In this document: one piece after another, positions 43,687 to 52,901 of the stretch
Layout: each line of letters opens with the position of its first letter
Numbering within the stretch: position 1 is the first letter of the stretch
NCBI GenBank assembly: GCA_902792085.1
Contig: CADAYE010000003.1
Coordinates: 1-64,000, forward strand
Direction: 5' to 3'
DNA length: 64,000 nucleotides
Source of the DNA: an uncultured bacterium
Lineage (GTDB): Bacteria > Cyanobacteriota > Vampirovibrionia > Gastranaerophilales > Gastranaerophilaceae
Program-made: the position numbers and the translations under genes
The notes under the pieces: generated by a model
Told to the model about the DNA's origin: nothing
Database searches by the model: none
The model's input: only the letters and a program-made list of their open reading frames with translations

Positions 43687-43764
43687 TGTCATCCTGAACT
43701 TGTTTCAGGATCTAATATTCTTATTACTACAATAAACAGATTCTGAAATAAATTCAGAATGACA
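43687..43764. repeat. TGTCATCCTGAA element between aspS and rqcH
   Basis: The ends TGTCATCCTGAA and TTCAGAATGACA are near-complementary and two inner hairpins are present. Its first 26 bases reappear exactly, inverted, at 51579-51604, and its ends resemble 11697-11753. Confidence 0.65.
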
Positions 43765-50837: not shown

Positions 50838-51488
50838 ATGCAATTTGTAAATTACGAAATAAAAACAGGCGAAGAAAACATGCAAATTGATTCTGATTTG
50901 CTTGAGTATGCTATCGAAAATAAATTAAAAGAACCCATTTTCAGATTATATGGCTGGAAACCTTCGTGTGTATCATTAGGTAGAAATCAGAATGATGAAT
51001 TTTTGGATAAAGAGTATCTAACAAAATGCGGGATTGATGTTGTCAGGCGTTTGACCGGCGGTCGTGCGCTTTTGCATGACAATGAAATCACATACAGTTA
51101 TATTTGTCCTGTTTCGTATTTAGAGCATGGCGAACATGTAGTATCTTCTTACAAGGAAATTTGTCAGATATTTATTAACAAATTTAAGACTATCGGAATT
51201 GATATTGATTTTGGTACTCAAAAACAGATAAGAACAGGTTTTGATTATTGCATGCTTGTGTCAACCGGGGCAGATTTATGTTTTAACGGTAAAAAACTAA
51301 TCGGTTCTGCCCAGTGCAGAAAACATGGTTATATTCTTCAGCATGGCTCTATACTGTATGATTACGATAAAGAATTATTAGAGAAAATATTTGGAGAAGA
51401 AGTATCAACAGACGAAATTACATGTATAAGGGAGATTAACCAGAGCATAACAAAAGAAGATATAGTGAAACTTTTGAATAAATCTTGA
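50838..51488 (+). CDS. Lipoate-protein ligase/octanoyltransferase-like protein (LplA/LipM fold)
   Basis: This 216-residue BPL_LplA_LipB-type protein contains PSCVSLGRNQ, VVRRLTGGRALLHDNEITYS, the LIGSAQCRKHGYILQHGSI block with the conserved Lys just before, and a C-terminal helix. The Cys in GSAQCR is in the region used by LipM octanoyltransferases. It attaches lipoate or octanoate to carrier domains; which cannot be decided. There is no clear ribosome-binding site, and the gene follows the previous one closely. Confidence 0.82.
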   Translation: MQFVNYEIKTGEENMQIDSDLLEYAIENKLKEPIFRLYGWKPSCVSLGRNQNDEFLDKEYLTKCGIDVVRRLTGGRALLHDNEITYSYICPVSYLEHGEHVVSSYKEICQIFINKFKTIGIDIDFGTQKQIRTGFDYCMLVSTGADLCFNGKKLIGSAQCRKHGYILQHGSILYDYDKELLEKIFGEEVSTDEITCIREINQSITKEDIVKLLNKS

Positions 51489-51835
51489 TTTTTTGGTATG
51501 TTGATGTTAATCTAAACATATATTGAGCAACTTAGCCTCTTTACTTTGTATGATGGGAAAGTTTGCGAGATGGTGAGATCCTGAAACAAGTTCAGGATGA
51601 CATTGGACAAAAGTCGTCACGGGCCTGTGGCACTCTGCCGACGAGGAAGATTGATAATCTTCCGAGGAGAGGAAGGTAGCGCACGCTAACGCTGAGCCCG
51701 TTGAAAACTGAATAACAAAGTCGTCACGGGCCTGTGGCACTCTGCCGACGAGGAAGATTAATAATCTTCCGAGGAGAGGAAGGTAGCGCACGCTAACGCT
51801 GAGCCCGTTGAAAATTGAATAACAAAAGTCGTCAC
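51489..51835. other. Gene-free repeat region before the tRNA
   Basis: It holds a 26-bp inverted copy (51579-51604) of the first part of the element at 43687 and two tandem 107/108-bp units (51613-51827). Short minus-strand frames through the units are repeats of one another and lack ribosome-binding sites. Confidence 0.7.
51613..51827 (+). repeat. Two tandem 107/108-bp repeats abutting a tRNA gene
   Basis: Units 51613-51719 and 51720-51827 differ at only a few positions. Each begins with the same 19 bases as the tRNA locus (GTCGTCACGGGCCTGTGGC, at 51613, 51720 and 51828), contains the perfect hairpin GGAAGATT/AATCTTCC and GGTAGCGCA, and ends near GAGCCCG, which can pair with the CGGGC at the start. 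Confidence 0.85.
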
Positions 51836-51907
51836 GGGCCTGTGGCGCAGCGGTAGCGCAGAGGACTCATAATCCTTTGGTCGTGGGTTCGAATCCCTCC
51901 GGGCCCA
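51836..51907 (+). tRNA. tRNA with anticodon CAT (probably elongator Met; Ile2 possible)
   Basis: The 7-bp acceptor stem GGGCCTG/CGGGCCC has a T-G pair, discriminator A. The anticodon stem GAGGA/TCCTT closes loop CTCATAA with CAT at 51868-51870, and the T arm has GGGTTCGAATCCC. The paired G1-C72 argues against initiator tRNA. A C34 modified to lysidine would make it tRNA-Ile2. CCA is not encoded. It is followed at once by a terminator. Confidence 0.9.
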
Positions 51908-51910
51908 GAT

Positions 51911-51943
51911 AAAAACAGGGTAGATAATATCTACCCTGTTTTT
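51911..51943. terminator. Terminator after the tRNA, shared with the convergent LysM gene
   Basis: AAAAACAGGGTAGAT and ATCTACCCTGTTTTT form a perfect 15-bp stem with an AAT loop; it overlaps the stop of the LysM gene on the other strand. Confidence 0.88.
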
Positions 51944-52901
51944 ATTTATGTTTTCCCTGTTTTTTTCTTGCATTCCGTATAGTTGCCATTGCCGTATTTG
52001 CATAGGCTTCTTTTAATTTAAGAGGAGTTCCGTCTTTTTTATAAACTATTTTGCCACCCTTTTTAACAGGTCGGTTTACTGTATTATAGTTTTGAAATGC
52101 GATGTTTTCATCTCCGTTTGCTTGTTTCAGTTTGTATTTATATACATAGGCTCCGATTTTAAGATTCAGGTCAAAATCTTTTTTTAGGGCAGCGTTCAAA
52201 TTATCAGGAGTTTTATATTTATACAGCATTTCTCCAAAATCACCAAGTTTTAGAGTCGGGTTTGCTTTTTTTGCCGCAAACACTTTTGCAAGGCTTCCAT
52301 GTTGTTTTATTAGTAATGCTAATTTTGAATCATATAATCCTGGTCTTTCGTACATATCTCTTGGTATAATACTTGTAATTCCTGCTGGTCCTTTGCCGTT
52401 GCTTGACATAATCATTTGTTCTGAAAAATGTGATTCGTTTTGAACAATCGCTGCTAGTGAGTCTGGCTTAATTCCAACCAGAAAAGCCACATCAGTAATT
52501 CTAGATGCCATTCGGTCCACATCAATTTTATGTGCATTTTTGTCATTTTGTATAATTATAGAAACAAGTTCTTTCCCTTGTTGTTTTGTCATTTGTTCAT
52601 TTTGAGCAGGAGTTTCTTTTTTTTGTGCAGTGGAAGGTTTTGGAGGCTGGTGAGTTGACTGTGTTTCTCTTGTCGCAGCCGGTTTTTTTTTGTTTGCAGT
52701 TGCAGTTATTTCAATGGTATAACCCTGTATTGGTTCATCATTGTCTAAAGAAGGTACATTAATTTTATCGCCCTTAAAAATCAAATGAGGTTTATCTTTT
52801 AGTTTAGGGTTAAGTTCAATTATTTTTTTTATGCTTGTCTTGTATTGTTTTGCGATACTGCTTAATGTATCACCTTTTCTGATTTGGTATTCTCCGCTCA
52901 T
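51942..52901 (-). CDS. LysM protein with transglycosylase-like domain
   Basis: This protein has 319 residues from ATG 52901, with AGAGG 5 nt upstream. A LysM domain (about 5-50: YQIRKGDTLSSIAKQYKTS) is followed by a Pro/Thr/Gln-rich linker (70-110) and a helical domain with IVQNESHFSEQ (Glu156), GPAGITSI and a final FQNYNTV block, the pattern of soluble lytic transglycosylases. No Sec signal peptide is visible, which is odd for a peptidoglycan enzyme. Confidence 0.72.
   Translation of the reverse strand: MSGEYQIRKGDTLSSIAKQYKTSIKKIIELNPKLKDKPHLIFKGDKINVPSLDNDEPIQGYTIEITATANKKKPAATRETQSTHQPPKPSTAQKKETPAQNEQMTKQQGKELVSIIIQNDKNAHKIDVDRMASRITDVAFLVGIKPDSLAAIVQNESHFSEQMIMSSNGKGPAGITSIIPRDMYERPGLYDSKLALLIKQHGSLAKVFAAKKANPTLKLGDFGEMLYKYKTPDNLNAALKKDFDLNLKIGAYVYKYKLKQANGDENIAFQNYNTVNRPVKKGGKIVYKKDGTPLKLKEAYANTAMATIRNARKKQGKHK

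Follow-up and report, generated by a model that had tools for sequence, protein, structure and literature searches.

A conserved hairpin set in copied tRNA gene ends: a candidate small mobile element of tRNA leaders in Gastranaerophilales

Why should a tRNA gene be preceded by two further copies of its own beginning? This question is raised by a locus in the 64,000-nucleotide stretch of DNA analysed here (the window), which comes from an uncultured bacterium of the Gastranaerophilaceae. The 19-mer GTCGTCACGGGCCTGTGGC, made up of eight leader bases and the 11 bases of tRNA nt 1-11, is found exactly at 51613, 51720 and 51828 (expected 0 in the window), with spacings of 107 and 108, and no further site was detected in the window even with two mismatches. 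TRF reports a single array (2.2 copies, 96% match, score 459). An earlier note on this DNA had described two near-identical 107/108-bp units and a tRNA with a shared 19-base start, and this description holds. The array is no assembly artefact, because the same element is present in hundreds of independently assembled genomes.

Anatomy of the units

All features of the locus lie on the forward strand. A promoter-like CTTGATT-17-TAATCT of the tRNA (51484..51513), presumably active, and a terminator-like hairpin (51913..51948), both read from the sequence, enclose unit 1 (51613..51719, 107 bp), unit 2 (51720..51827, 108 bp) and the intact tRNA with anticodon CAT (51836..51907), which is Met according to ARAGORN and possibly Ile2. 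R1, a covariance model built on the core of the units, matches unit 1 at 51623-51679 (E 3.2e-21) and unit 2 at 51730-51786, both being members of its training set. Just 5' of unit 1 lies a separate palindromic repeat, GATCCTGAAACAAGTTCAGGATGACA (51577..51602), which is probably outside the element; it has a second exact copy in the window at 43687-43712 (expected 0) and is also seen within the tails of two Pro units (L089, L091).

Each unit runs from tRNA nt 1-11 (segment X) through a 41-nt core, AA, GGTAGCGCA (Y') and a tail to a boxA-like motif. In unit 1, X (GGGCCTGTGGC, 51621..51631) is identical to tRNA nt 1-11, and the core ACTCTGCCGACGAGGAAGATTGATAATCTTCCGAGGAGAGG (51632..51672; 51739..51779 in unit 2) occupies the slot of tRNA nt 12-16 (GCAGC) as a hairpin, ACTCTGCCGACGAG-hp-CGAGGAGAGG, with a kink-turn-like internal loop. 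Y' (51675..51683) resumes the D-loop sequence of the tRNA, and the tail CGCTAACGCTGAGCCCG (51684..51700) is antisense to the D-arm of the intact tRNA at 13/15 positions. The boxA-like TTGAAAACTGAATA (51701..51714), which we take to resemble the boxA of rRNA leaders, is found between units and tRNA at most loci. The perfect GGAAGATT/AATCTTCC hairpin, GGTAGCGCA and the GAGCCCG end that had been pointed out earlier are all present, and the GCCCG of the unit 1 tail pairs with the unit start (CGGGC/GCCCG), forming an outer start/tail stem in the minimum-energy fold.

In the core, a lower stem (CUCU/AGAG) is followed by a one-base bulge and CC/GG; above these come an internal loop, GAC-GA/GA, in agreement with the kink-turn consensus, and an upper stem in which three pairs vary with changes on both sides (97% of cells paired among 15 units). 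Class 1 cores, CC-GAC-GA-NC/NC-GA-GG, would fit a kink turn, with NC pairs that covary, and class 2 cores (CTCTGCCGA..GAGAGG) would require a 4-nt bulge to do so. The observed classes start with ACTC and end with GAGG, and the terminal inverted repeat is limited to CTCT/AGAG, broken by the asymmetric loop. A second core family, AAGGACTCCRC...GYGGAGG (AAGGACTCC...), fills the same slot in other units. More hairpins with a GACTAAATGTC-type tip and other lower stems were seen at three loci (L119, L123, L108) and are possibly further core families. A hammerhead-like reading of CCGACGAG...CGAGGAG was rejected, as it has no Rfam match and, to our understanding, does not fit the hammerhead consensus.

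Given this anatomy, the proposals of the earlier note fare differently. A decayed tRNA copy does not adequately describe the units, as only nt 1-11 and about 17-25 align and the units go uncalled both by ARAGORN and by the Rfam tRNA model. A tRNA-derived repeat describes the first 11 bases and GGTAGCGCA, which are tRNA sequence, and fails for the central hairpin, which is not.

Spread of the core and its targets

The exact core pattern occurs in both window copies and once at a tRNA-Leu of the same genome, and is present in 12/40 relatives, all of the same genus. With R1, 19 copies were found in the source genome, and copies were found in 44 of the 46 genomes of the genus and in 255 of the 286 genomes of the order Gastranaerophilales (35/50 genera). 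Outside this order, a draw of genomes from the phylum gave one weak match only (E 1.8e-4). Named records carrying the core are mostly Candidatus Gastranaerophilales or Melainabacteria, many of them from animal guts. A phage origin was rejected, since an exact search for the core in viral contigs (IMG/VR) returned 0 matches. At the gathering threshold, Rfam matches in the window and 12 related loci were to tRNA only, and at relaxed E-values tRNA alone was credible, with nothing credible around the units. No relevant paper came up when the literature was searched for tRNA repeats in Gastranaerophilales or for repeats 5' of tRNA genes. The core is a structured, order-wide sequence family that was not found in Rfam or in the papers searched.

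This conservation across the order and at many tRNAs contradicts chance or decay. A neutral tandem duplication of leader and tRNA start, decaying later and with a hairpin by chance, would account for the near-identical tandem copies and for the drift of X at three loci (L035, L041, L067), but it leaves the same core in 255/286 genomes and at many tRNAs unaccounted for, and we regard it as very improbable.

Within the source genome, where 41 tRNA genes were detected, 16 of the 19 core copies lie directly 5' of ten tRNA genes: Met(CAT), four Leu, three Pro, Ile and Thr. The search for units near other tRNAs that had been proposed earlier thus found them there, and many distant copies were not found. 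The genome contains eight copies of the apical hairpin GACTAAATGTC, all of them within units. That the core is conserved at many tRNA loci per genus, exchanged between tRNA types and also present in non-tRNA palindromes is further evidence against a decayed tRNA copy.

For 152 of 180 units among all loci fetched, X (the 10 nt before the core) is present again within 400 bp, at an adjacent and uninterrupted target, compared with 3-7 recurrences (about 5) when another unit's X is used as the control. The main targets are tRNAs Met, Leu, Pro, Lys(ctt) and Val(gac). Of the 118 units in which the return to tRNA sequence is clear, 105 have a replaced gap of 4-6 nt, mostly GCAGC or GGAATC, that is, tRNA nt 12-16/17. 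More rarely, a unit adjoins the 3' end of a tRNA on the other strand, and it then opens with that end in reverse complement (Thr, Met, Lys and Arg tRNAs). At one locus (L157) a core is found near an apparent 5S rRNA gene, recognised by eye, on the other strand, with the target GTTCGGGATGGGAACGGGTGG downstream. As a separate observation, two loci (L278, L279) hold partial tRNA(CAT) 3' ends (nt 23-72 and 28-72), in each case with the intact gene at a distance of some 7-8 kb along the contig; these partial ends are possibly attachment-site copies of elements integrated at tRNA(CAT).

The tail is also related to the target. A Smith-Waterman antisense score of at least 9 against the adjacent tRNA was obtained for 37% of unit tails, vs 9% against other tRNAs and 3% for shuffled tails. 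The antisense stretch may span the bases displaced by the core, as in L020 (15/15 over GCGGAATCGGTAGAC) and L147 (14/14), and the complement of the replaced gap is clear in 26/118 tails vs 6 in the control. Since such a tail includes bases that are missing from the unit's sense arm, fold-back copying of the interrupted unit cannot have produced it; it comes from an intact tRNA, or stays complementary to one. Leu(tag) tails are without the antisense part.

Movement between loci and empty sites

Flanks track the tRNA and cores do not. Eleven cores are identical letter for letter across two to six tRNA types, and the likelihood that two cores are identical is only slightly lower between tRNA types (0.028) than within a type (0.043), although the upper stem tolerates variation (162 units yield 76 different cores). 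Two cores of the source genome interrupt palindromic repeats, GTCATTGCGAACGAAGT[core]ACAATCCAG and GTCATTGCGAGCGATAGT[core]ATAATCCAG, and empty counterparts exist in the same genome, namely GTCATTGCGAACGAAGTGAAGCAATCCAG (five exact copies) and GTCATTGCGAGCGATAGCGAAGCAATCCAG (one). At both palindromes the core replaced 4-6 nt, and comparison of filled with empty palindromes of the source genome revealed no target-site duplication; at tRNAs, a precise excision footprint was not seen. The host palindrome family, GTCATTGCGA...AATCCAG, has 46 pattern matches in the source genome, and its outer stem is kept while the inner hairpins vary widely, as if tips were exchanged.

Presence at comparable leaders is also variable. 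A conserved box, TTGATTTTT, was found at 33/37 leaders of the window tRNA, with or without units. These 33 leaders belong to the window tRNA or a close relative within the genus, with flanking genes that are partly comparable, so that some of them may stand at different chromosomal loci. Ten of them carry no units; the other 23 carry one to four.

Taken together, the sharing of one core by many targets, the palindromes that exist both interrupted and empty, and the patchy presence of units at comparable leaders lead us to lean towards the reading that each unit represents a small (41-45 bp) REP/MITE-like, non-autonomous mobile hairpin inserted in an extra copy of the tRNA 5' end, with tandem amplification within pre-tRNA leaders. 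The empty-site argument at non-tRNA palindromes is based on two insertions, and common cores could in part reflect gene conversion or the convergence of short stems. A Y1/IS200-like transposase was rejected as the driver, as there is no correlation with unit number: PF01797 was detected in 10/22 unit-rich genomes vs 2/13 genomes without R1 matches, and not in one genome (G063) with 18 core copies.

With respect to mechanism, the core prefers the tips of hairpin-forming gene ends and is accompanied by target copies in sense and antisense, which suggests that insertion or template switching may take place at single-stranded hairpins. In the course of replication or repair, the core would be inserted at the tip of a gene end that is single-stranded and forms a hairpin, and template switching would leave the sense and antisense target copies. 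The repeated leader and tRNA start would then allow tandem expansion of units by unequal recombination. The array would be transcribed with the tRNA as its 5' leader and presumably removed by RNase P, and it could be tolerated there because the intact tRNA remains downstream.

The core has the appearance of a small mobile element of tRNA leaders that is so far undescribed, and several known systems resemble it in part. The tandem repeats 3' of the E. coli tyrT gene (rtT), each holding a piece of the tRNA 3' end, are similar in being located at a tRNA gene and in carrying a short piece of that tRNA, whereas the present units lie upstream, carry the tRNA 5' end and a conserved core, and occur at many tRNAs across an order. 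REP elements are likewise small hairpin DNA repeats regarded as mobile (PMC3733652), and the core resembles REP/RAYT elements as an imperfect short palindrome, with bulge and internal loop, in dispersed copies (19). Unlike REP elements, the core has no GTAG or CGTC tag at its end, is not tracked by Y1 transposase genes, and is found almost only at tRNA gene starts with a copy of the target and often an inverted copy too. Some REP or CGTC- and GTAG-tagged palindrome families are reported to be inserted within other palindromes in A. variabilis, T. roseum and H. neapolitanus (PMC3733652). Bacterial MITEs and Rickettsia palindromic elements, the latter reported within tmRNA and RNase P RNA genes, are also short, non-autonomous, structured repeats (PMC2229807); the core differs from them in its size of about 41-45 bp, in replacing 4-7 nt of the target with no target-site duplication, and in coming with tandem copying of the target's own end. 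We consider REP elements in palindromes and Rickettsia palindromic elements to be the closest precedents.

The leader RNA and its constraints

The position of the units points to transcription. All units at the 23 unit-bearing leaders lie between the TTGATTTTT box and the tRNA, and none upstream, so that the units are most likely transcribed as pre-tRNA leader; a pre-tRNA spacer, as proposed earlier, is therefore partly right. More generally, the better promoter match stands 5' of the first unit by more than 1 bit in 86/114 loci, most clearly at Leu(taa) and Leu(tag), while at Leu(gag) and Ile this best match falls between unit and tRNA.

This arrangement raises the alternative that the units act in cis as a leader RNA controlling tRNA synthesis or maturation, in which a protein or ligand bound to the core decides whether the tRNA folds. 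The leader would form a three-way junction of the start/tail stem, the core stem with its kink turn and a third hairpin, and the tail would pair with either the unit start or the real tRNA start. In addition to the 86/114 loci, and to the 23 unit-bearing leaders whose promoter can be recognised, in all of which the units are placed between it and the tRNA, compensatory changes in the core stem argue for this reading. Folding argues in the same direction: the mean fold z of 90 related units is -3.3 vs dinucleotide shuffles (the window unit alone is modestly better than shuffles, z -1.7), and the sense strand folds better than the antisense in 65 of the 90, which hints at selection on the RNA. 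The start/tail stem reaches -8.8 vs -6.5 kcal/mol in swaps between tRNA types, and a diverged leader (G010) keeps the three-way fold (z -2.2) though its start no longer matches the tRNA. A strong bias towards 5' leaders on the sense strand and an internal loop conserved across the order suggest, against the mobile hairpin, that there is further constraint.

Nevertheless, presence is erratic among related species (10/33 comparable leaders empty), cores interrupt non-tRNA palindromes as well and can stand on the opposite strand, the antisense part is missing from Leu(tag) tails, and at Leu(gag) and Ile the promoter is placed after the unit and before the tRNA, all of which count against a leader RNA. 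A minimum free energy test of the start/tail stem did not discriminate. G-U outnumber A-C combinations in this stem (61 vs 34), X being G/T-rich; non-Watson-Crick pairs are few in the core stem (G-U 5 vs A-C 2), and the third hairpin has no excess of G-U over A-C (10 vs 11). Without such an excess and with its almost perfect inverted repeat, the third hairpin looks more like the product of recent copying than of long RNA-level selection. Also, a second diverged leader (G054) is without the three-way fold. The evidence for RNA-level constraint is mixed, and we consider a regulatory leader, the more surprising reading, possible but unlikely. T-box and other kink-turn leader riboswitches, which are structured leader RNAs that regulate mRNAs by binding tRNA, share with the units a structured leader, a kink-turn-like motif and a relationship to tRNA, but here the downstream gene is the tRNA itself and there is no match to an Rfam family.

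It is also conceivable that the units encode stable small RNAs of tRNA-like form, which RNase P would release and which would work in trans, for instance as sponges or as antisense RNAs against the 5' half of the tRNA. Their folded, tRNA-sized form with a boxA-like motif of their own, and promoter-like sequences flanking some Leu(gag) units on both sides, would agree with this, but the sequences of tail and third hairpin are not conserved and no Rfam match exists, which makes such a function improbable. A more general claim, that a clade-wide element builds a decoy at each tRNA it reaches (a copy of the tRNA start and an antisense copy), whether through insertion directed by hairpins or as a leader switch that senses tRNA and has a tail shared by decoy and real tRNA, appears to us rather doubtful.

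If the mobile hairpin is the true explanation, the tRNA leaders of a large group of gut bacteria have been colonised by a hairpin that copies the end of the adjacent tRNA. Such a small element would live in essential genes without breaking them and provide a natural setting in which template switching at DNA hairpins can be studied. If the units are leader RNAs instead, they would represent a tRNA-controlling element with both a mimic and an antisense of its own tRNA. Unit repeats may also break assemblies and confuse tRNA annotation. A bacterial tRNA intron, considered for a core within an otherwise complete tRNA-Met (L197), was rejected, as the full region (L209) shows unit-tRNA recombination at GGTAGCGCAG. 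That region (2360-5200 of L209, from G288:C54) contains a duplication of about 2.7 kb of unit and tRNA, whose second unit has recombined with the tRNA at this sequence, giving a tRNA whose D-arm contains the core and which ARAGORN fails to recognise.
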